A DNA stretch of 64,000 bases. It comes from Rhodothermia bacterium (GTDB taxonomy: Bacteria; Bacteroidota; Rhodothermia; Balneolales; Balneolaceae). The notes beneath the pieces were generated by a model. That model saw only the letters and a list, made by a program, of their open reading frames with translations. It did no database searches and was not told the DNA's origin. The position numbers were made by a program, and so were the translations under genes. Below, piece after piece: positions 3,151 to 15,255 of the stretch. The stretch lies in assembly GCA_030427885.1 (NCBI GenBank), contig JAUICM010000001.1:1-64000 (forward strand). Direction: 5' to 3'. How positions within the stretch are numbered: position 1 is the stretch's first letter; each line of letters opens with the position of its first letter.

Positions 3151-4080
3151 CTACAGTTTATTTCTATACTCAGAAGGAGAAAGCTCGATCAGTTTTTTAA
3201 AGGTTCGAGAGAAATAAAAGGGATCGTTGTACCCCAGTTTATAAGCAATTTCCTTTATACTTTTGTCTGTGAAACTCAGATAGTTACATGCCTTCTGAAT
3301 TTTTAAATGATTAAAATAGCTGATTGGTGTATAACCCGTTCCCTTTTTAAACAGTGAATAAATATGTGAAGCGGAGTAATTCAGGTGATTGGCTAGCTCT
3401 TCAATCGATAATGATGAATGTAAATTCATCTGCATGTATTGAATTACAGAGTTGACAACATCAGAACTGTTTTGGGTAGTATTATTTTTTGCGTGAAAGT
3501 GGGGGTATATAAATGATCCCAATAGTTGTGAAAGACGGATATTTACATACTCAATAATGTCGGTACTATATCCCTTTTCAAGCAATGCAATTATATCCTC
3601 AAAATAACTTATACGTTTATCAGTAAAAGGTATGTTGTGGGCTATCTTTCTTTCGGTAAGCTCTAAGTTCAGATATTTTCTATAAATGCTGTCTGCAATT
3701 TTTCCTCTAAAGTGAACCCAATAAATACTCCATGGTTTTTTTTCTTCAGCTCCGTATTTATGGGGTAGATTAGCAGGTATTATGACATACGAATTTGGGA
3801 TAATTTCAAAAATAGTACTATTCATTTCTATCCACCCACGCCCTTCTAAACAATAAATCAAGATATATTCTTCAGCTCCATTATCCCTTTTTCTAAAGTG
3901 ATTCTCTGCATGCGGGTAATATCCTATATCAGTCAGATATAGATTCTCTGTGATCGGATTATTCTTAATAGTTCTTCTGAGTTTACTGGGGATAACGACC
4001 ATTTTCTGGCCTAAGAACCCTTCTCCTTTCATATGTAATTTAATAGTAGAATTGTCCATGTTTTTTAACCTTTTGTCCAT
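3151..4080 (-). CDS. AraC/XylS-family transcriptional regulator
   Basis: This 309-residue regulator has an N-terminal cupin-like sugar-sensing half (about residues 45-180, with VIIPANLPHKYG in the beta-barrel) and a C-terminal double HTH (about residues 205-307). The latter shows the family signature IKEIAYKLGYNDPFYFSRTFKK followed by SPSEYR. Proteins of this shape bind a sugar in the cupin and switch transcription of uptake and catabolic genes. It is divergent from the sugar porter gene at 4223 with a 142-base shared intergenic region, a layout that suggests it controls the porter and following genes, probably in response to xylose or arabinose (inference). Translation could start at 4080 or at the second Met (4059). 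There is no signal peptide, as expected for a cytoplasmic regulator. Confidence 0.92.
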   Translation of the reverse strand: MDKRLKNMDNSTIKLHMKGEGFLGQKMVVIPSKLRRTIKNNPITENLYLTDIGYYPHAENHFRKRDNGAEEYILIYCLEGRGWIEMNSTIFEIIPNSYVIIPANLPHKYGAEEKKPWSIYWVHFRGKIADSIYRKYLNLELTERKIAHNIPFTDKRISYFEDIIALLEKGYSTDIIEYVNIRLSQLLGSFIYPHFHAKNNTTQNSSDVVNSVIQYMQMNLHSSLSIEELANHLNYSASHIYSLFKKGTGYTPISYFNHLKIQKACNYLSFTDKSIKEIAYKLGYNDPFYFSRTFKKLIELSPSEYRNKL

Positions 4081-4222: not shown

Positions 4223-5635
4223 ATGGATCATAAAGACGCGTACAAATTCAGGTTCAGCTATATCCTGGCGATCTCATCAGTAACTGCCTTAGGTGGGTTT
4301 TTATTCGGGTATGATTGGGTTGTGATCGGGGGAGCCAAACCATTTTATGAGGCATATTTCGGACTTGAGTCTTCAGCGGAAATTGGCTGGGCGGTAAGTA
4401 ATGCCCTGGTTGGGTGTTTGATCGGGGCAGCAATGTCTGGTTTTTTCACTGACAAATATGGTCGAAAAAAAATACTCATACTTTCCGGAATATTATTCAC
4501 GATTTCAGCGGTAGGAACGGCACTTTCAGATTCCTTTTCCTTTTTTGTATATGCCCGCATTTTAGGTGGAATCGGTATTGGGTTAGCCTCCAATGTTTCT
4601 CCAATGTACATCGCGGAAATAGCACCGGCCAAACACCGTGGAAGTCTGGTATCTATTAACCAGCTTACTATCGTATTTGGAATTCTTGCAGCACAAATAG
4701 CCAACTGGGTGATCGCCGAGCCTGTAGGAGAGAGCGCTTCAAATGAATATATCCTTAGTTCCTGGAACGGGCAGTTTGGCTGGCGATGGATGTTCGGAGT
4801 AGAGGCTTTACCTGCCTTCATTTTCTTTGTACTGGCATGGTTTGTTCCGGAAAGTCCCAGATGGTTAGCTAAGCAGCAGAGGAATGGAGAAGCGGAAAAA
4901 GTATTACGAAAAATTGGTGGGGCCGGGTATGCAGCTACTGAATTGAAGTCGATAAAGAATACACTGAATAGTGAGGTTAAAAAGGTAGATATAAAAGAAT
5001 TATGGCAGCCTTCTGTGCTTCCCATTTTGATGATAGGAATAGGATTAGCTGTATTCCAGCAATGGTGCGGTATAAATGTAATTTTCAATTATGCCGATGA
5101 AGTATTTACCAGCGCCGGGTACACCGTTACGGATATGTTGTTCAACATTGTAATTACCGGGGCTGTAAATCTCATCTTCACACTTGTTGCTATGAAAACG
5201 GTTGACAGTATCGGGCGTAAAAAGCTGATGTTGACCGGATCCGGAGGACTTGCCGTGATCTACTTGGTTCTTGCTTTCTTTTACTATACACAGATGCTTG
5301 GAGTTCATATGCTGATACTTGTTGTAGCTGCAATAGCCTTTTATGCAACCTCTCTGGCTCCGGTTACCTGGGTTATTATTTCCGAAATATTTCCAAATCA
5401 TATCCGGGGAGCAGCAATGTCAGTTTCAGTATTTGCTCTGTGGGCAGCTTCTCTGGTACTAACCTATACCTTTCCGATGCTAAACGAAGGGCTTGGGGAA
5501 GGCTCAAAAGGTACAGCACTGACTTTTGGACTATATGCGTCCATTTGCATTTTAGGATTTGTACTGATCCGTAAAAAATTACCGGAAACTAAAGGGAAGT
5601 CACTGGAAGAGCTTGAAAAAGAACTTACAAATTAA
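4223..5635 (+). CDS. Sugar porter of the major facilitator superfamily (XylE-like sugar:H+ symporter)
   Basis: The 470-residue protein has the twelve hydrophobic segments and all signature motifs of the sugar porter family: GGFLFGYD at about 24-31, DKYGRKK at 77-83 between helices 2 and 3, PESPRWL before the central loop, QQWCGINVIFNY at about 280, DSIGRKK in the second half, PVTWVIISEIFP, and PETKG near the end. Members in xylan-degrading bacteria carry D-xylose, L-arabinose or glucose across the inner membrane with protons. It begins the plus-strand run and is divergent from araC, with a DUF5107-TPR gene 19 bases downstream. Xylose as substrate is inferred from context; the family cannot be resolved to one sugar by eye. 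Confidence 0.95.
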   Translation: MDHKDAYKFRFSYILAISSVTALGGFLFGYDWVVIGGAKPFYEAYFGLESSAEIGWAVSNALVGCLIGAAMSGFFTDKYGRKKILILSGILFTISAVGTALSDSFSFFVYARILGGIGIGLASNVSPMYIAEIAPAKHRGSLVSINQLTIVFGILAAQIANWVIAEPVGESASNEYILSSWNGQFGWRWMFGVEALPAFIFFVLAWFVPESPRWLAKQQRNGEAEKVLRKIGGAGYAATELKSIKNTLNSEVKKVDIKELWQPSVLPILMIGIGLAVFQQWCGINVIFNYADEVFTSAGYTVTDMLFNIVITGAVNLIFTLVAMKTVDSIGRKKLMLTGSGGLAVIYLVLAFFYYTQMLGVHMLILVVAAIAFYATSLAPVTWVIISEIFPNHIRGAAMSVSVFALWAASLVLTYTFPMLNEGLGEGSKGTALTFGLYASICILGFVLIRKKLPETKGKSLEELEKELTN

Positions 5636-5654: not shown

Positions 5655-8600
5655 ATGAAGGACAATAATCTGGTCAAAATCTGGGAAGAAAAAGTTTCTA
5701 TACCTACTTATCCGGTTGATAAGCCGGAAAAGAATCCCATGTTTTTCCAGAAAAGGGTATACCAGGGCAGCAGTGGAGTGGTTTATCCAAATCCGATTAT
5801 TGAAAAGATTCACGATGATAAAATAGAAAAGATTTATAACGGTCTGTTTCTGGAGAACAAGTACATCAAGGTTCTGATTCTGCCTGAACTCGGAGGGCGG
5901 GTTCAAATGGCATACGACAAAATTAAAAAGAGGCATTTTGTATATCATAATCAGGTTATAAAACCGGCTCTTGTTGGATTACTAGGACCATGGATATCGG
6001 GAGGGATTGAGTTTAACTGGCCTCAACACCATCGCCCGAGTACCTTTCAGCCGGTAGACTATAAGATTGATGAAAATGAAGATGGCTCTGTAACAGCCTG
6101 GACCAATGAAATTGAGCTAATGTTCCATACAAAAGGGATGGCCGGTTTTACCATCTACCCGGATAAAGCCTATCTTGAAATTAACGTTCAATTGTATAAT
6201 CGTAACGCTCTCCCTCAAACATTTTTATGGTGGGCGAATCCTGCAGTAAGTGTAGATGAACATTATCAATCGGTATTCCCACCGGATGTTAATGCAGTTT
6301 TTGATCATGGGAAGCGTGATGTAGCTACCTTTCCGATCGCCGAAGGAACTTATTATAAAGTTGATTATTCGCCGGGTACTGATATTTCAAGATACAAGAA
6401 CCTGCCTGTACCAACATCATATATGGCTATTCAATCGGATTACGACTTTGTTGGTGGATATGAGCATAATACCGAAGCAGGACTGTTACATGTAGCCAAC
6501 CATCATATTTCTCCGGGTAAAAAACAATGGACCTGGGGAAATGGTGATTTTGGAAAGGCATGGGACCGAAATTTAACGGATGAGGACGGGCCCTATATTG
6601 AGCTTATGACAGGGGTATTTACTGACAATCAGCCGGATTTTTCCTGGTTAATGCCTTATGAGGAAAAGTCGTTCTCACAATATTTTATGCCCTATCAAAA
6701 ACTGGGAGTAGTGAAAAATGCTACAAAGGATATTTTATTAAACATTGAACCCAGTGATGATAAAAAAACAGACCTGAAGATCTATGCGACCTCGGTACAA
6801 GAGCGGGTTCAGGTTAAGTTATTTGCAGAGGGTGAGTTGATCTATGAAGATCAAACTGACCTCAGTCCTGAATCTGCGTATGAAAAAAGCATTGATTCAG
6901 ATCATTCACTTAACAATAAAGATTATGTACTGATTGTAGAAGACAGAGAGGGGTTCGAGCTTATCAGGTATGAACCATCCAAAAACCGGAAGGAAGAAAT
7001 TCCGGAGCCGGCAAAATCTGCAAAACAGCCGGAAGAAATTGAGGGTACCGAACAACTCTATCTCACAGGTCTGCATCTGGAACAATATCGACATGCCACG
7101 TACCAACCCGAACTTTATTATAAGGAGGCCCTGAAAAGAGACCCCAAAGATATCAGGAATAATAATGCACTAGGTACATGGTATTTGCGGCAAGGACGGT
7201 TTGAGGAAAGTGAGGCTTATTTCAGAAAAGCAATTGAAACGCTAACTGAAAGGAATACTAATCCATATAACGGAGAAGCTTTTTATAATCTGGGTCTTTG
7301 TCTGAAATATCAGGGAAAATTAGCTGAGGCATATACTGCTTTTTATAAATCTGTATGGAACAGCGCCTGGCAGGATAAAAGCTATTTCTCATTGGCTGAA
7401 ATTAATACAAGTCGGGGCGAGTTTGAGAAAGCCCTTGAGCATATCAACAAGTCGCTTGACCGGAATGCTGGGAACAGCAAGGGTTGGTCACTTAAAACAG
7501 CCAATCTTAGAAGAAAAAAGGAATATAAAGCAGCCCTGGAAAGCACAGAAACTGCTATTAGCAGGGACCCTTTTAACCTAAGTGCTTATTTTGAAAAGTA
7601 TCTTATTTATGAGCTGACAGGTGAAACAGAAAAAAGGAAGTCCGCTCTGGATAAGTTTATAAAGTTATCACGTCTATCTGTTCAGAATTTGATAGCCTAT
7701 GCGCTTGATTATGCTTCTTCCGGACTATATGATGAAGCTGTGAGTTTGCTCTCGCACGCTGTTGATGACAGCTTGGAAAGAACATACCCGATGGTTCTGT
7801 ATTATCTGGGATGGTTTTATAACAAAAAGGGTGATAAAAAATTGGCTCTTAAGTTCTATCGTATAGCCGCTGCCGCTTCTCCTGATTACTGCTTTCCTAA
7901 TCGGTTGCAGGCGATTCCAGTGTTGAGGGAGGCCATGGAGTTGAACAAAGAGGATGCTATGGCCCCCTATTATCTTGGCTGTCTTTTTTATGATAAACGA
8001 CAAGATGAGCTCGCAATAAGTTATTGGGAGACATCTAAAAGAATAGATAACAGTTTTCCAACAGTACACCGTAACCTGGGGATTGCTTTGTTCAACAAGT
8101 TAAAGGAGCCTGAAAAAGCAATTCAAAGTTATGAAAAAGCCTTTTTCCTGGATCCTTCAGATGCACGTATTCTCATGGAGCTAGATCAGTTGTATAAACG
8201 AACAAACAAAGATCCCCGGGAGCGTCTGGCTTTTCTGGAAGAGCATTTGGAATTGGTTGAGTTCCGGGATGACCTCTATCTTGAACGAGCCGCTCTCAAT
8301 AACTTTCTTGGCCGGTACGGTGAAGCATATGACCTCCTAATGGGGCGTAAATTTCATCCCTGGGAAGGAGGTGAAGGAAGAGTTTCTGATCAGTACGTTT
8401 ATAGCCTGACCGAATTGGCAAAAGAAGATATATATAGAGGGGAATACCATCATGCTATTGAAAAGCTGGAAAAGGCTCGTACTTATCCGGAAAATTTGGG
8501 GGAGGGGAAACTTTTAGGTACTCGCGAAAACGACATTTTCTACTGGATTGGTGTAGCCTGTGAGCAATTAAATGATACTGTTAGGGCAAAAGAATATTGG

Positions 8601-9011
8601 GCTAAAGCTGCAGAGGGAGAGTATGAACCTGCCGCTGCCATTTTTTATAATGACCAACCCGCTGATAAAATATTCTATCAGGCATTGGCCTGGCAAAAGC
8701 TGGAGGAACACGGGAAAGCAGAAGAGTTAAATCAAATGCTGATCAACTATGGAAAAAAACATATGAATGATGAGGTCAAAATTGATTATTTCGCTGTTTC
8801 CCTGCCTGATCTTCTCATTTTTGACGGTGATCTCCCTCTGAGAAATAAAATCCATTGCACTTATATGATTGCCCTGGGGAATCTTTTAGCGGGTAATATC
8901 TCTGAGTCAAGTGCCCTGTTCAATGATATTCTGGCTAAGGATGCTATGCACTTTGGAGCCAAAACACATCTTGATTTTACCAAGTACCAACATGTTAAGT
9001 TGAATAGCTAA
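5655..9011 (+). CDS. DUF5107 (mutarotase-like) protein with C-terminal TPR array
   Basis: The frame extends upstream to a TTG inside the symporter gene, but the ATG at 5655 is the sensible start and gives about 1118 residues. Residues about 35-390 match the DUF5107 type, a galactose-mutarotase-like beta-supersandwich with the characteristic LPELGGRV and GGIEFNWPQHH segments rich in aromatic and His residues. Residues about 480-1090 are a long series of tetratricopeptide repeats (for example NNALGTWYLRQGRFEESEAY and later LEKA, YYLG and NLG units). There is no signal peptide, so it is probably cytoplasmic. It lies 19 bases after the xylose-type symporter, suggesting a role in handling imported sugar or sensing it. 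The family has no function that I can state firmly; sugar binding is inferred from the fold. Confidence 0.88.
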   Translation: MKDNNLVKIWEEKVSIPTYPVDKPEKNPMFFQKRVYQGSSGVVYPNPIIEKIHDDKIEKIYNGLFLENKYIKVLILPELGGRVQMAYDKIKKRHFVYHNQVIKPALVGLLGPWISGGIEFNWPQHHRPSTFQPVDYKIDENEDGSVTAWTNEIELMFHTKGMAGFTIYPDKAYLEINVQLYNRNALPQTFLWWANPAVSVDEHYQSVFPPDVNAVFDHGKRDVATFPIAEGTYYKVDYSPGTDISRYKNLPVPTSYMAIQSDYDFVGGYEHNTEAGLLHVANHHISPGKKQWTWGNGDFGKAWDRNLTDEDGPYIELMTGVFTDNQPDFSWLMPYEEKSFSQYFMPYQKLGVVKNATKDILLNIEPSDDKKTDLKIYATSVQERVQVKLFAEGELIYEDQTDLSPESAYEKSIDSDHSLNNKDYVLIVEDREGFELIRYEPSKNRKEEIPEPAKSAKQPEEIEGTEQLYLTGLHLEQYRHATYQPELYYKEALKRDPKDIRNNNALGTWYLRQGRFEESEAYFRKAIETLTERNTNPYNGEAFYNLGLCLKYQGKLAEAYTAFYKSVWNSAWQDKSYFSLAEINTSRGEFEKALEHINKSLDRNAGNSKGWSLKTANLRRKKEYKAALESTETAISRDPFNLSAYFEKYLIYELTGETEKRKSALDKFIKLSRLSVQNLIAYALDYASSGLYDEAVSLLSHAVDDSLERTYPMVLYYLGWFYNKKGDKKLALKFYRIAAAASPDYCFPNRLQAIPVLREAMELNKEDAMAPYYLGCLFYDKRQDELAISYWETSKRIDNSFPTVHRNLGIALFNKLKEPEKAIQSYEKAFFLDPSDARILMELDQLYKRTNKDPRERLAFLEEHLELVEFRDDLYLERAALNNFLGRYGEAYDLLMGRKFHPWEGGEGRVSDQYVYSLTELAKEDIYRGEYHHAIEKLEKARTYPENLGEGKLLGTRENDIFYWIGVACEQLNDTVRAKEYWAKAAEGEYEPAAAIFYNDQPADKIFYQALAWQKLEEHGKAEELNQMLINYGKKHMNDEVKIDYFAVSLPDLLIFDGDLPLRNKIHCTYMIALGNLLAGNISESSALFNDILAKDAMHFGAKTHLDFTKYQHVKLNS

Positions 9012-9056: not shown

Positions 9057-12014
9057 ATGAGTGAACACAAAAAGATGAAATTCTTAAATCAATCAATAGT
9101 TCCAGGTATGAATGAAATATTAAAAAGATCAATTTACCTATTTCTGGTAGTGTTTATGCTTCCGGGATGTTCTCAAAATAATGATCCCAATCTGATTTCA
9201 TTATCAGGAGAATGGCAATTTAAAATGGATACTCTTGATGTTGGAGTTAGTGAAGAATGGTTTGCCAGAGACTTTGAAGATTCTATTCGGCTGCCCGGTT
9301 CCATGATGGAATATGACAAAGGTTTTGAACCCACTTTAGAAACACAGTGGACCGGTTCTATTTACGACAGTTCATTTTATTATGATAACCGGTATGAAGA
9401 ATATCGCCAGAAGCATGATATTAAATTTCCATTCTGGCTTACTCCATCTAAACATTATGTTGGAGCTGCATGGTACAGCCGTGAAATTACCATTCCGGAG
9501 AGATTGAGTAATAATAAAATTGAATTGAATCTGGAGCGTCCACACTGGGAGACAACTGTTTGGGTGGATAATATGAAAGCAGGGCCTGCACAACGTAGCC
9601 TTTCCACACCTCACAAGTACGATCTTACGAAATTCTTAAGCCCGGGCACACACAGACTAACTATTCGGGTAGATAACCGGCTAAATGAAGTTAACGTTGG
9701 TCCTGATTCCCACAGCCTTACCGACCATACTCAGGGAAATTGGAATGGTATTGTGGGTGATTTGGAGCTTAAGGCCAGTCCGCCGGTTCACATAGCAGAT
9801 ATAGAACTCTATCCTGACATAGAAAACCAATCTGTTAGAGCAGTTATTGATATCAGGAATATGACCGGAAAGGCGGCTGCCGGTGAAGTTCAGCTTTCTG
9901 CAAATTCATTTAATTCAGATAAAAGCCATAAAGTGCCTGTTTTTACGAAATCTTTTAGGGTGGAAGGAGATTCACTGAGCATGGAAATTGAATACAAGCT
10001 TGGAGAAGATGTCCAGTTTTGGGATGAATTTAACCCGGCATTGTACCGGTTAACAGCAGAATTATATGTAGATGGGATTAAGAGTACACATAGTATTCAG
10101 GAAGAGTTTGGTATGCGTGAGTTTACTGCTGAAGGGACCCGATTTGCAGTAAATGGTCGCCCTGTTTTTCTTCGTGGAACACTGGACTGTGCCGCTTTTC
10201 CACTTACGGGATATCCACCGACTGAAATTCCAGAGTGGGAAAAAATATTCAAGACTGTGAAAGAGCATGGGCTTAATCATGTTCGTTACCACTCATGGTG
10301 TCCTCCAAAGGCAGCATTTCAAGCAGCAGACAGGGTGGGCATTTATCTGCAACCCGAGGCGGCAAGTTGGCCTAATCATGGTGTAACTGTGGGGGATGGT
10401 CAGCCAATTGATGATTACCTGATGGAAGAGACAAGCCGAATACTGGATGCGTACGGTAATCACGCTTCATTTGTAATGATGGCGGCAGGGAATGAACCAG
10501 GAGGAGGAAATCAGGTCGGATATCTCAACGCTTATGTCAACCACTGGCAGGCACAAGACCCACGGCGACTATATACAGGAGCTTCAATAGGAATGAGCTG
10601 GCCGATTGTTCCTGAAAGCGACTTTTTGGTGCGTTCGGGTCCCAGGGGACTTAAATGGAAAGATGGTACACCGGGCACGATGTTTGATCATTATGAAAGT
10701 ATTAAAGATACGGATATTCCTTACGTGGCTCATGAGAACGGACAGTACAATGTATTTCCAGACTTCAGAGAGATTGACAAATATACCGGTGTGTACAAAG
10801 CGAAAAACTTTGAGCTTTTCCGGGCTCTTATGGAAAAAAATGGAATGAAAGGAAAAGGTCACGACTTTATGATGGCCTCTGGAAAACTGCAGTCAATTAT
10901 GTATAAAGCCGAGATCGAAGCTGCACTCAGAACTCCGGGTTTTGCCGGCTTCCAGTTACTGGATCTGAATGATTTTCCAGGGCAAGGAACAGCATTGATC
11001 GGGGTTTTAAATACATTTTGGGAAGAAAAGGGATATATCTCTCCAGAAGAATTCCGACGATTTTCAGGTGCAACAGTGCCACTGGCTAGGATTGAAAAAT
11101 TTGTTTGGGAAAACAATGAAACCTTTCATGCCAGCGCCGAACTATCGCATTTCGGCCCGAAGCCTTTAGATGATATTGAAGCCCGATGGGTAATTAAAAG
11201 TGATAATGGAGAAGAAGTAGCATCCGGTAGTTTCCCCCCCCGAACAATACCATTAGATAATACCATTACACTCGGAACAGTGAAATTGAATCTTTCACAA
11301 TTTGATAGAGCTCAAAAGTTAAACCTTACAATCACAGTTGATGGTAATGCCAATGATTGGGATTTCTGGGTATATCCCGCTGACCCAATACAACCGGGAA
11401 TTTCAAACATTTATATAACCGACAGCCTTGATACAGCAGCTAAGAATGTCTTGAATGAAGGAGGAATAGTTTTTGTTGATGCTGCCGGAAAAGTGCAATA
11501 CGGGAAAGACATTATTCAATACTTTCGTCCTGTTTTTTGGAACACATCCTGGTTCCAGATGAATCCTCCTCACACATTGGGCATTTTTTTGAACCCGGAG
11601 CACCCTGCATTTAATGATTTTCCGACGGAATACCATAGCAATTATCAATGGTTTGATATTCTGAACCGGCAACAGGTAATGTGGCTAGAGGGTTTTCCGG
11701 ATGATTTTGAGCCTTTGATTCAGCCCATTGATACCTATCACCTAAACCGGAAATTAGGTCTTGTTTTGGAAGCACAAGTTGGCAAAGGAAAGCTGCTTAT
11801 AAGTAGTACTGATCTGACCAACAGATTAGATGAAAGGCCGGCAGCGAGACAGTTACGTCAAAGCCTGATTAAGTATATGGGTTCAGAAAATTTTAATCCT
11901 GAATATACCGTAGAGATGTCAGTGATTGAAGATATATTCAGAAAACAGTCGGAAAGATTAAACTTTTATACCAATGAAAGTACCGATGATCTGAAACCTG
12001 AAACACAAAACTGA
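9057..12014 (+). CDS. Glycoside hydrolase family 2-type lipoprotein (beta-galactosidase/glucuronidase clan)
   Basis: The 985-residue protein has a lipoprotein signal ending MLPGC (Cys38 counted from the ATG at 9057; an ATG at 9108 would give a more typical 21-residue signal). The GH2 order is visible: sugar-binding jelly roll (about 45-235), immunoglobulin-like domain (about 240-345), then a TIM barrel. The acid/base is Glu480 in GNEPGG and the likely nucleophile is Glu560 in HENGQY. About 300 further residues follow, including a segment (about 790-950) with GKGKLLISS and RPAARQL that resembles the amidotransferase-like tail seen in large Bacteroidota GH2 enzymes. It is probably anchored in a membrane facing the periplasm or surface. 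Substrate unknown; a side-chain galactosyl, arabinosyl or uronosyl linkage is plausible in this locus. Confidence 0.88.
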   Translation: MSEHKKMKFLNQSIVPGMNEILKRSIYLFLVVFMLPGCSQNNDPNLISLSGEWQFKMDTLDVGVSEEWFARDFEDSIRLPGSMMEYDKGFEPTLETQWTGSIYDSSFYYDNRYEEYRQKHDIKFPFWLTPSKHYVGAAWYSREITIPERLSNNKIELNLERPHWETTVWVDNMKAGPAQRSLSTPHKYDLTKFLSPGTHRLTIRVDNRLNEVNVGPDSHSLTDHTQGNWNGIVGDLELKASPPVHIADIELYPDIENQSVRAVIDIRNMTGKAAAGEVQLSANSFNSDKSHKVPVFTKSFRVEGDSLSMEIEYKLGEDVQFWDEFNPALYRLTAELYVDGIKSTHSIQEEFGMREFTAEGTRFAVNGRPVFLRGTLDCAAFPLTGYPPTEIPEWEKIFKTVKEHGLNHVRYHSWCPPKAAFQAADRVGIYLQPEAASWPNHGVTVGDGQPIDDYLMEETSRILDAYGNHASFVMMAAGNEPGGGNQVGYLNAYVNHWQAQDPRRLYTGASIGMSWPIVPESDFLVRSGPRGLKWKDGTPGTMFDHYESIKDTDIPYVAHENGQYNVFPDFREIDKYTGVYKAKNFELFRALMEKNGMKGKGHDFMMASGKLQSIMYKAEIEAALRTPGFAGFQLLDLNDFPGQGTALIGVLNTFWEEKGYISPEEFRRFSGATVPLARIEKFVWENNETFHASAELSHFGPKPLDDIEARWVIKSDNGEEVASGSFPPRTIPLDNTITLGTVKLNLSQFDRAQKLNLTITVDGNANDWDFWVYPADPIQPGISNIYITDSLDTAAKNVLNEGGIVFVDAAGKVQYGKDIIQYFRPVFWNTSWFQMNPPHTLGIFLNPEHPAFNDFPTEYHSNYQWFDILNRQQVMWLEGFPDDFEPLIQPIDTYHLNRKLGLVLEAQVGKGKLLISSTDLTNRLDERPAARQLRQSLIKYMGSENFNPEYTVEMSVIEDIFRKQSERLNFYTNESTDDLKPETQN

Positions 12015-12115: not shown

Positions 12116-14257
12116 ATGATTTCTGTTAATCCAAAAAAGACATTCAAAATGAAGAACTACTCGTTCGTTTTCAAAAGACCAAAGCCTGTATTGATGGTTT
12201 TGTTTGTATTCCTGATTATGAATTGCAAACCATCTGGTAATGGAGAACAACTTAAAATTGATCCGGAGACCGGTCAATATGTCCATAAAGCGGTGGGTAA
12301 TCCTTATTTACCTTTATGGGAACATCTTCCGGACGGTGAACCAAGAGTTTTCGAAGATCCTGATAACCCGGGGAAATATCGTATCTACATAATCGGTTCC
12401 CATGATGTAAGTACAACCAGTTATTGCGGCCCCGATATCAGGGCGTGGTCGGCTCCGGTTGAAGATCTTACCAACTGGAGAGATGAAGGTTCTCTATTCA
12501 CTTATCAGATCAACGGAAGATGGGATGTGATGTTTGCTCCTGATCTGGTTGAAGTAAAGAGAAAGAATGGCGCAAAGGAATATTACTTATACCCGCACAG
12601 CCGGGGATGGGGAAGAGAAGCCATGGTCGCTAAAAGTAATCGACCTGATGGTCCGTTTGAAGTATTAAATCTGACGGATGACAGTACACGAACGGTGGAA
12701 GGAAGTATCATGGGCTTTGATCCAGCGGTTTTCATAGAATACATCACAGACAAAAATGATCCTGACTACGACATTGGTTTCAGAGCATATGGATACTGGG
12801 GATTCCAGCGATCACTTGCTGGCGAACTGGATCAAAATACGATGTACTCTCTTCGCCCCGGAACAGAAGTAATTGACAGGTTTATCCCAGCCAGCTTCAG
12901 ATATGGGGTGATCAGAGATCCGAAAGGCACTAAATATCCACACGTTTACCCGGATGAGGATCTTGGAGCATTTAACTTTTTTGAAGCGGCATCAATTCGA
13001 AAAATCGGCAATAAGTACTTGTGGGTATACAGCGGGTATTCTGGTCCTGATTATGGGTTGAGCAGTACCAATTCAGCACTCAGATATGCTTATGGAGACT
13101 CTCCACTCGGGCCATGGAAAAGCGGAGGTGTTCTTGTAGACTCGCGTGCCGTTGTACCTGGAGAAGATGGTACCACTCTTCAGACAACTTATGCCGGACA
13201 TAATACTCATGGTAGCATTGAGCTGATCAATGATCAATGGTACGCGTTCTACCACCGGGCTCCGAGAGGTTTTGGAAATGCACGTCAGCCAATGGTGGCA
13301 CCTGTTACTATTGAATGGGATGAAGAACCCGTATCAGAGGGAGGTAAGGTGGTAATCAGAGCATATGATCCATACGCGGATGATAATATCTGGACTGCAA
13401 AAGATAGTCAGGGCAATGAGTACACTGGCGCTGAAGTAACATCCGAAGGCTTTAATATTTACGGATTGGATCCTTATAAATACTATTCAGCAGGGTATGC
13501 TTCCTACCTTTCGGATATCAGTAAACAATCAGATTCCTGGGATATCTGGGACAACAATATGCCGGTCTCAAATGTTGAGAATGGTAATATAATCGGCTAT
13601 AAATATTTTGGATTTGGTGGGCTTGAGGAAGACAAAAAAGGCCTAAAAGCATTTAAGGGCACTAAACCAGGAAACAATACCACATTCAGTTTATTTCTGA
13701 CCCCTAAAACATCCAAGGCTTTCAGGGTTAATGTTTGGTTGGATGGCCCCTGGGATAATGATACCTGGAATGGTACCAAAATCGGAGAAATCAATGTTCC
13801 TGTAAATTCAACTCAACAAATCACAGAGTTCACTATAAATGTATCTGATCAGGTGGATAATCTGGATCAAAAAAATGCATTGTTTCTTGTGGCTGAAGGT
13901 GCCGATACAACCGCTCTTTTTGATTTAATAGGTCTTGGTTTTAGTTCCGACAAAAAGAAACTTGTCCGCCCTGTTGTTCCAACTGTTAGTATTCAGGTTA
14001 ATGGGGAAGAACTAAAGATTCCGGAGACACCGGTAAGGTCAACGCCTCAGAATGGAATTGTAGGCTATGACCAGTATGAAGTTGTTTACACTCTTCCGTC
14101 ATCAGTTACGAGTGTGCCAACTGTAACTGCTTCTGCAAGTGATCCAGAAGTAGGAATTCAGGTAAATCAGGCCGAATCTATATCTGGGACAGCAGTAGTA
14201 GAATTTGAATTCCAGGGTGTAGTGAAAACGTTTAATGTTATATTAGCCTCAGAATAA
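12116..14257 (+). CDS. Glycoside hydrolase family 43 lipoprotein with CBM6-like and extra C-terminal domains
   Basis: The 713-residue protein carries a lipobox (LIMNC, Cys37). An ATG at 12149 may be the true start. The five-bladed GH43 propeller spans about 60-430, with putative base Asp81 (VFEDP), the WAPD-like Asp143, modulator Asp202 (GFDPAVF) and acid Glu290 (FFEAASIRK). A beta-sandwich of CBM6 character follows (about 455-625). The final domain (about 625-713) closely resembles one near the end of the GH3 at 42527-46330. GH43 enzymes in xylan loci are beta-xylosidases or alpha-L-arabinofuranosidases; the subfamily here is uncertain. The gene is 101 bases after the GH2 gene and ends at a terminator shared with the convergent esterase. 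Confidence 0.88.
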   Translation: MISVNPKKTFKMKNYSFVFKRPKPVLMVLFVFLIMNCKPSGNGEQLKIDPETGQYVHKAVGNPYLPLWEHLPDGEPRVFEDPDNPGKYRIYIIGSHDVSTTSYCGPDIRAWSAPVEDLTNWRDEGSLFTYQINGRWDVMFAPDLVEVKRKNGAKEYYLYPHSRGWGREAMVAKSNRPDGPFEVLNLTDDSTRTVEGSIMGFDPAVFIEYITDKNDPDYDIGFRAYGYWGFQRSLAGELDQNTMYSLRPGTEVIDRFIPASFRYGVIRDPKGTKYPHVYPDEDLGAFNFFEAASIRKIGNKYLWVYSGYSGPDYGLSSTNSALRYAYGDSPLGPWKSGGVLVDSRAVVPGEDGTTLQTTYAGHNTHGSIELINDQWYAFYHRAPRGFGNARQPMVAPVTIEWDEEPVSEGGKVVIRAYDPYADDNIWTAKDSQGNEYTGAEVTSEGFNIYGLDPYKYYSAGYASYLSDISKQSDSWDIWDNNMPVSNVENGNIIGYKYFGFGGLEEDKKGLKAFKGTKPGNNTTFSLFLTPKTSKAFRVNVWLDGPWDNDTWNGTKIGEINVPVNSTQQITEFTINVSDQVDNLDQKNALFLVAEGADTTALFDLIGLGFSSDKKKLVRPVVPTVSIQVNGEELKIPETPVRSTPQNGIVGYDQYEVVYTLPSSVTSVPTVTASASDPEVGIQVNQAESISGTAVVEFEFQGVVKTFNVILASE

Positions 14258-14259
14258 AA

Positions 14260-14284
14260 AAAGGAGTCTCCCGGAGACTCCTTT
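14260..14284. terminator. Bidirectional terminator between convergent genes
   Basis: GGAGTCT pairs with AGACTCC, flanked by A-run and T-run bases on both sides. It starts three bases after the GH43 stop and lies 39 bases from the end of the convergent esterase gene. Confidence 0.85.
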
Positions 14285-14322: not shown

Positions 14323-15255
14323 TCAATTAGTCTCAAGAAAATCATTTACCTCTAACCAGTAAATGAAGGCATCAAACCAGCGATTGCTGGTACGGTCAGG
14401 ATTTCCAAGTCCAAAGCCATGGCCGCCATTCTGGTATAAGTGAAATTCAACTGGCACTCCTGCTTTATACCATGACTCAATTACACCGTTCTGTCCATTG
14501 AACAGGAAGTCATCTGTTGCAATAACATTAAACATTGCTGGAGCATTTTCAGGCACATCAACAGGTCCCATGCCGCCATAAATAGGTCCAATGAATGCAA
14601 GTTTCATAGTTTTTGAATTAAGGGTAGAATGCATGGTTAAGCCTGCACCAGCAGAAAAACCGATCATACCAATACGGTCGGTATCAACTCCCCATTCATC
14701 AGCCCGGTCGATGATCATTTTATAAGCTGCTTCAGCATCTTCAAGCTGATTGTCCAGGTTCCAGCGTGGCGGTGGTGGTGGAGGGGTATCTCCGGATTCA
14801 GCAGAATTTGTTGGAGGAGCAGGACGTGGTCTTGGATTATTCATAAAATCTGTGAAATCATCCAGTGATTCTGCAGTAGGGCGAAGTCTGTATTTAAGTA
14901 CAAAAGCTGCAATTCCCTGCTCGGCAAGTGCTTCAGCAACTTCCCATCCTTCATTCCCCATCGACAACCACATGTAACCTCCACCGGGTGCAACAATCAC
15001 AGCCGCACCGTTGGCTTTATCAGGATCGGGGAGAAAAGGAGTTAAAGTTGCAGTAGAAATGTTGCGGGCCATGGGGTCTCCCCATTGGCGAAACCATGAT
15101 TCAGGAGCAGGCTGGTTTTCTACGCCTCCTGTTCCAAGCGGTATGGCATTGGGTTCATCAGGAGCTTCAAGTGGATAAATGGTGCCGTCTTGCGCCACAG
15201 CAGAAGCTGCGAAGAAGAGCACCGAAAAGAAGAGGAGTGTTTTTGTGAGTTTCAT
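14323..15255 (-). CDS. Secreted alpha/beta-hydrolase esterase (acetylxylan esterase-like)
   Basis: The 310-residue protein has a signal peptide ending SAVAQ. The alpha/beta-hydrolase fold of the BD-FAE/acetyl esterase type shows an oxyanion segment APGGGY (about 89-94), nucleophile Ser201 in GFSAG, acid Asp248 or Asp249 in ATDDF, and His279 in GGHGFG. A Pro-rich, probably flexible insertion (about 141-163, including a run of six Pro) interrupts the domain before the WNLDNQLEDA helix. Enzymes of this kind remove acetyl or feruloyl groups from xylan. It lies on the minus strand downstream of a GH97 gene with a 61-base gap and may share its transcript. The exact ester cleaved cannot be read from sequence. 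Confidence 0.88.
   Translation of the reverse strand: MKLTKTLLFFSVLFFAASAVAQDGTIYPLEAPDEPNAIPLGTGGVENQPAPESWFRQWGDPMARNISTATLTPFLPDPDKANGAAVIVAPGGGYMWLSMGNEGWEVAEALAEQGIAAFVLKYRLRPTAESLDDFTDFMNNPRPRPAPPTNSAESGDTPPPPPPRWNLDNQLEDAEAAYKMIIDRADEWGVDTDRIGMIGFSAGAGLTMHSTLNSKTMKLAFIGPIYGGMGPVDVPENAPAMFNVIATDDFLFNGQNGVIESWYKAGVPVEFHLYQNGGHGFGLGNPDRTSNRWFDAFIYWLEVNDFLETN

Follow-up and report, generated by a model that had tools for sequence, protein, structure and literature searches.

The window analyzed here is a 64,000-nucleotide stretch of DNA from a Rhodothermia bacterium of the Balneolaceae (GenBank assembly GCA_030427885.1, contig JAUICM010000001.1, positions 1 to 64,000 of the forward strand), and the gene in question is a single intact open reading frame (ORF) on the + strand that runs from an ATG at 5655 to a stop codon at 9011 and codes for a 1118-residue protein with a DUF5107 domain and a long array of tetratricopeptide repeats (TPRs). 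An alternative TTG start 42 bases upstream would lengthen the frame, but we prefer the ATG because it matches the aligned starts of relatives. A divergent AraC-type regulator faces a line of four genes, consisting of a sugar porter, the DUF5107–TPR gene, a glycoside hydrolase family 2 (GH2) putative lipoprotein, and a GH43-like gene, with intergenic gaps of 19 bases (porter stop to 5655), 45 bases (to the GH2 gene), and 101 bases.

PF17128 (DUF5107) matches residues 43–344 of the protein with 184.8 bits, compared to a Pfam cut-off of 24.4, and Pfam TPR models match from about residue 480 onward; the rest of the window genome contains no DUF5107 match. An AlphaFold2 model built from 39 sequences, with a mean predicted local distance difference test score (pLDDT) of 87.5 and a predicted template modeling score (pTM) of 0.87, begins with a region rich in beta strands, continues with more strands at residues ~360–439, and ends in some 35 helices at 465–1117. 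The first part superimposes on the mutarotase fold (3mwx, VIA Z 19.8, root-mean-square deviation (rmsd) 2.8 over 259 residues; E. coli YphB, 3nre, VIA Z 16.5, rmsd 3.0 over 243 residues), the second half matches TPR structures such as the TPR domain of O-GlcNAc transferase, and the nearest solved fold overall is 5cd6, also a DUF5107–TPR protein. At a threshold of 1e-3, the aldose 1-epimerase family PF01263 was absent from the Pfam matches, and no GH family model in Pfam or NCBIfam matched the protein. Its N-terminus lacks a hydrophobic stretch (maximum Kyte–Doolittle 15-mer 0.43), and only one of 82 orthologs (L069) exceeds 1.6 in this region, which looks like an over-extended ORF start. The original prediction, of a mutarotase-like domain fused to about 600 residues of TPRs (about 650 in the model) in a protein without a signal peptide, thus agrees with these results, as does the spacing of 19 bases behind a sugar porter that it had given. 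The next gene downstream is a GH2 gene as predicted, and its product is a putative lipoprotein, with a lipobox-like LPGC motif recognized by eye.

Sequence comparison indicates that the window protein is a member of the YphG family, which is known, has no function that we could find in the literature, and includes a core E. coli protein. E. coli YphG (b2549) is identical at 437 of 1081 positions (40%), with 2% gaps, is collinear through both halves, and is present at ≥80% of its length in 5369 of 5426 (98.9%) complete E. coli genomes. The 80 top-ranking relatives, out of at least 453, come from several phyla, and all align over nearly their full length, 79 at 53–62% identity and one at 82%. 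Among 128 genomes of the window's own order, a copy more than 80% identical occurs in just two (the window genome and one other), alongside one relative at 39% and five at 30–34%, a patchy spread that is consistent with horizontal transfer. Open-licence papers yielded no function for YphG, DUF5107, or PF17128, although one may have been published elsewhere; in a study of K. pneumoniae, yphG served as a polymerase chain reaction marker, found in 1623 of 1649 genomes (PMC10569728).

Three kinds of relatives help to place the protein. BDI_1685 of Parabacteroides distasonis (5cd6) shares the DUF5107 and TPR parts (VIA Z 29.5 over 485 residues, rmsd 22.7 over several domains) and retains equivalents of E119, H126, N195, and E316, but its solved chain has 580 residues, K289 and several other invariant window residues differ, and the sequence match covers only residues 43–348, the search having used the DUF5107 part. 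The GalM and YphB aldose 1-epimerases share the fold of the first half, whereas the window protein is three to four times longer, adds the TPR half, and apparently has Asn195 in place of the catalytic His. Paralogs from Balneolaceae (L021–L025) are 25–34% identical over most of the length, and the four that were aligned (L021, L022, L024, and L025) share many of the invariant residues; unlike the window protein, however, these paralogs have hydrophobic N-termini. The neighbors of the three loci examined (L023–L025) also differ from those in the window, with L024 carrying Gfo/Idh/MocA and 3-keto-disaccharide hydrolase genes. As a separate observation, genes next to these paralogs encode Gfo/Idh/MocA or GH109-type oxidoreductases (L024:2104–14652 and L025:10541–16469), along with a sulfatase in L025, or a GHL10 protein (L023:5734–10085), and the paralogs may thus take part in the oxidative cleavage of glycosides.

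Conservation extends through both halves of the protein, with 199 positions that are invariant (≥98%) in the 82 orthologs and identical in YphG. Mean conservation is 0.82–0.89 at residues 101–350 and 0.39–0.49 in the beta linker. Invariant residues in the DUF5107 domain include E67, N68, E119, H126, N195, D309, and E316. In the sole usable profile alignment (hhalign to a YphB/DUF4432-like profile, probability 96.5), N195 falls at the position of the catalytic His of mutarotases, and direct alignment to the GalM profile had a probability of 0.2; judged by motif, E316 appears to be positioned like the mutarotase base. Among the invariant residues of the TPR half, 39 are polar or aromatic, and 15 of these lie in loops of ≥5 residues. 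Positions conserved at ≥97% make up 43 of 184 loop residues and 55 of 465 helix residues (means 0.66 vs 0.60), and individual loops range from 0.95 (534–540) and 0.87 (897–908, with the motif FHPWEGGEG) to 0.33 (703–711). In a plain TPR scaffold, we would expect conservation to concentrate at helix packing positions rather than in loops. Because of the invariant polar and aromatic residues, 15 of which lie in long loops, the TPR half is probably not a plain scaffold. The original prediction had allowed either a cytoplasmic enzyme or a sugar sensor on a protein-interaction scaffold; the cytoplasmic location stands, and the invariant TPR residues make an enzyme the better fit and a scaffold sensor the poorer one, which is an argument rather than proof.

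We surveyed the neighborhoods of the window gene and of its best 80 relatives (L034–L113), 81 loci in total, with the phylum of each locus assigned from organism names and L035 (bacterium A37T11) counted with Bacteroidota. A sugar porter cluster lies near the gene in 68 of the 81 loci, which corresponds to 68 of the 70 Bacteroidota/Balneolota loci; the 13 loci without it comprise 11 from Bacillota or Chloroflexota and two short contigs (L071 and L074). The porter is immediately upstream on the same strand in 41 loci, at a spacing of −23 to 284 bases, and in the other 27 is one to five genes off or on the opposite strand. An ABC permease (cluster 19) replaces the porter in six of nine Bacillota loci, and the AraC regulator cluster is present in 59 of the 81 loci. 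We compared the 53 long Bacteroidota loci with 40 control stretches of 20 kb, taken in even steps from three of the same genomes with the locus itself excluded. The porter was found in 53 loci vs 0 controls, AraC in 43 vs 0, GH2 in 31 vs 3, GalM in 13 vs 0, and any galactosidase-type GH in 47 of 53 vs 5 of 40, whereas GH97 and GH95 taken singly did not differ clearly from the control (P 0.23 and 0.13, respectively); this contrast is somewhat flattered because the search models derive from the case loci. For each of seven genomes, the closest counterpart of the window porter is encoded no more than 5 kb from the DUF5107 gene, and three of the seven, including the window genome, have no other sugar porter at E 1e-20. 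These results support a strong link with sugar transport, for which the original prediction had proposed to look in a neighborhood survey.

Recurrent neighbors in Bacteroidota include GH2, GH35, GH36, a weakly GH36-like group, GH97, GH30, and GH95, with sulfatases in some loci; GH30_2, GH36, GH95, and GH97 we take to be galactosidases. A scan of 74 of 104 otherwise unannotated neighbors, with the other 30 omitted for size, as annotated or like annotated ones, or as near-duplicates, yielded scattered families only (25 listed of 127). GH10 and GH43 were not among these 25 families, a list that may hide single occurrences. We also observed, near YphG homologs, a group of ~730-residue proteins (cluster 8; L086:7794–9980 and 11 relatives) whose scanned member has almost no Pfam signal and a weak likeness to GH36 alpha-galactosidase (1zy9, E 0.12); this cluster is possibly an undescribed GH group.

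The porters linked to the gene share a distinctive pocket. The window porter has XylE as its nearest solved structure but differs from it at 6 of the 15 pocket positions checked and scores 415.9 against the XylE model, the cut-off of which is 608. Pocket positions follow the usual XylE numbering, and AraE and arabinose-binding protein are taken to have their customary ligands. In XylE numbering, Y383 and L415 are present in all 68 linked porters, N298 in 64, and A388 in 62, with G388 in the other six. Eight unlinked porters from four genomes instead have Y298, G388, and F or H at 383. E. coli AraE has Y383 and A388 as well. The clade of linked porters has a Shimodaira–Hasegawa (SH) support of 0.56, which becomes 0.72 when Klebsiella is included, and an inner clade of 66 that contains the Klebsiella porter has a support of 0.999.

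This Klebsiella porter is encoded in a yph locus that two records place between glyA and csiE. The locus also encodes a ROK regulator, YphG (43% identical to the window protein), and an aldose 1-epimerase, and no gene for a kinase, dehydrogenase, or GH directly adjoins the unit. In the tree, the porter from the first record groups within the linked Bacteroidota porters, and it carries N298, Y383, A388, and L415. Both Klebsiella records, L164 (NZ_CP093490.1) and L165 (NZ_CP129873.1), are of large plasmids, but the block from purL to iscA that surrounds the yph unit in them is made up of ordinary chromosomal genes and apparently represents plasmid-borne DNA of chromosomal origin. The Cetobacterium unit combines YphG with neighboring genes for an ABC importer and an AraC regulator and with an aldose 1-epimerase gene that overlaps the end of the YphG gene. 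E. coli YphG has the same two halves as the window protein and likewise adjoins sugar importer and aldose 1-epimerase genes, but the importer is of the ABC type (YphDEF) and is accompanied by the zinc dehydrogenase YphC and the epimerase YphB rather than by a porter and GHs, and the regulator is of the ROK type (NagC-like) rather than AraC. The binding protein of Cetobacterium is nearest to L-arabinose-binding proteins, and the matches of YphF include binding proteins of the ribose, YtfQ, and galactose types; together with the likeness of the porter to XylE, these matches indicate that the importers beside YphG are of monosaccharide type. Sugar import, YphG, and a mutarotase are therefore constant across Klebsiella, Cetobacterium, and E. 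coli while the import machinery differs, suggesting that the units have a sugar in common rather than a fixed protein partner.

We take the imported sugar to be galacto-configured. Xylose or xylan as the conserved role was rejected on the porter score and pocket differences given above. The association with xylan use raised in the original prediction was not supported either, since the porter pocket differs from that of XylE, the recurrent neighbors are galactosidase-type GHs, and no xylan family recurs among the neighbors scanned; the units of Klebsiella and Cetobacterium have no GH in their annotated neighborhoods. L-arabinose metabolism through AraA as a general route was weakened by the presence of araA in only six of nine gene-carrying genomes, and a missing galactokinase as the reason for the gene was rejected, as galK is present in all nine genomes checked. 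Two Chloroflexota loci (L067 and L104) carry several mandelate-racemase-type sugar acid dehydratases and a short-chain dehydrogenase/reductase, and L067 also carries a seven-bladed lactonase from a cluster with a member in L104, an arrangement that resembles an oxidative sugar pathway. The best models for these dehydratases are D-galactonate or D-mannonate dehydratase.

We tentatively propose, as a reading that we prefer without holding it firmly, that YphG-type proteins are cytoplasmic enzymes that convert an imported galacto-configured monosaccharide. Galactosidase-type exo-enzymes such as GH2 would release the sugar outside the cytoplasm, the neighboring symporter would import it as a monosaccharide with the shape of D-galactose, L-arabinose, or D-fucose, and an aldose 1-epimerase, where the unit has one, would supply the right anomer. 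The mutarotase-fold domain of YphG would bind the sugar, conserved loops of the TPR solenoid may close the pocket, and a carboxylate pair (proposed to be E119 and E316), together with H126 and D309, would convert the sugar to one usable by ordinary metabolism, most likely by isomerization or epimerization of the free sugar. A more far-reaching version of this proposal, which we consider rather unlikely, is that YphG is a new kind of sugar enzyme, with a mutarotase fold minus the epimerase His and a site completed by TPR loops. In this version, YphG would convert a galacto-configured monosaccharide in its unphosphorylated form, and this reaction would be the only committed step of a portable unit that combines an importer and a regulator with YphG and often with a mutarotase, and that ranges from E. 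coli to the Bacteroidota of gut and marine habitats.

Several results weigh against the proposed conversion of an imported galacto-configured sugar. L415 is also present in one of the eight unlinked porters, and G388 in six linked ones. Only 18 of the 81 loci have an aldose 1-epimerase (clusters 6 and 30) in the surrounding 10 kb or so, and the sole scanned cluster-30 member from the loci matches the aldose 1-epimerase family weakly. The neighboring GHs are mixed, and genomes rich in polysaccharide utilization loci have abundant GHs, as the five control stretches with such types illustrate. Because galK is found in all nine genomes, the plain galactose pathway needs no extra enzyme, and the L067 and L104 dehydratases do not settle the sugar because all of their matches are under cut-off. 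The pLDDT is <50 in the conserved loops 37–40 and 106–117. Finally, we know of no enzyme of mutarotase fold that does other than sugar 1-epimerization.

The strongest of the alternatives, which we nonetheless judge improbable, is a cytoplasmic glycoside hydrolase. The porter would then import a small glycoside, such as galactosyl-glycerol or a disaccharide, which YphG would cleave via E119 and E316 as an acid pair, with the mutarotase acting on the freed sugar. The invariant carboxylates E67, E119, D309, and E316 and the galactosidase-type neighbors are consistent with this idea, and the changes Y298N and Q415L could enlarge the porter pocket. A DUF5107 ortholog group also appears, beside digestive enzymes, among stramenopile phagotrophy markers in one study (PMC8163842). 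However, the importers are of monosaccharide type, the protein matches no GH family, and the GH2 and GH43-like proteins of the window bear export signals, as judged by eye, and hence are already extracytoplasmic.

More doubtful is a sugar sensor or adaptor, in which the mutarotase-like domain would bind a sugar but leave it unchanged and the TPRs would relay the signal to a partner, for example the importer or regulator. The apparent replacement of the mutarotase His by N195, the linked AraC gene in most loci, and the protein binding for which TPR folds are often used would suit such a role, but the partners vary between MFS (major facilitator superfamily) and ABC importers and between AraC and ROK regulators, no protein partner is constant in the neighborhoods, and both halves are strongly conserved, down to the invariant polar and aromatic residues of the TPR half. 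Least probable by some distance is a true aldose 1-epimerase in a large, one-sugar-specific form, because, despite the fold matches to several mutarotases including YphB (Z 16–20) and the placement of E316 as judged by motif, the catalytic His aligns with Asn in the one usable profile alignment, PF01263 does not match at 1e-3, and the units of E. coli, Klebsiella, and Cetobacterium contain a small mutarotase of their own.

Features of the window at and around the DUF5107–TPR gene.
Feature	Coordinates	Strand	Basis
AraC-family regulator, divergent, probable local regulator	3151–4080	−	Models; same cluster in 59/81 loci
Sugar porter family MFS symporter, pocket N298/Y383/A388/L415 (XylE numbering)	4223–5635	+	Family models, tree
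YphG-type DUF5107–TPR protein, 1118 residues	5655–9011	+	ORF, Pfam, 40% identity to E. coli YphG over 1081 residues, model
DUF5107/galactose-mutarotase-like domain, residues 43–344	5781–6686	+	Pfam 184.8 bits; fold match 3mwx
TPR helices, residues 465–1117, invariant motifs in long loops, e.g. FHPWEGGEG (900–908)	7047–9005	+	
GH2 putative lipoprotein near exo-beta-1,4-galactosidase BT4151 family	9057–12014	+	NF049890; lipobox-like LPGC by eye
GH43-like protein, 713 residues, last gene of probable operon	12116–14257	+	PDB 9no3, E 7e-30
Inverted repeat, 11 pairs, T tail on − strand	14260–14284	−	Consensus scan only

The GH2 protein scores 1465 bits against NF049890, slightly below the cut-off of 1500. 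A published account assigns BT4151 to a pectin locus, as an exo-beta-1,4-galactosidase of the periplasm (PMC8002723). The N-terminus of the GH43-like protein is hydrophobic; the protein matches no Pfam model at 1e-3 but resembles the GH43-type arabinofuranosidase/xylosidase 9no3. The tabulated inverted repeat sits between the convergent ends of this gene and of a gene at 14323–15255 on the − strand; the consensus scan found 13 such sites vs 9.2 expected. A strong 15-pair inverted repeat at 2217–2250, behind a SusD-like gene, possibly marks the end of the preceding transcription unit. A xylan locus lies downstream from 17449 on, with genes for a SASA esterase, GH43, GH31, GH97, GH3, GH10, and esterases.

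New in this work are the portable unit, the porter signature common to Bacteroidota and Klebsiella, and the conserved TPR loops. Pfam lists the family merely as a domain of unknown function, although its E. coli member occurs in 98.9% of complete genomes. The neighborhoods narrow the question of what YphG does from any function to the handling of one imported sugar, and the four-gene unit of the Klebsiella type is compact enough to point toward an answer. Should the TPR solenoid prove to form half of an active site, this would be unusual for a fold that is normally read as a protein-interaction scaffold.

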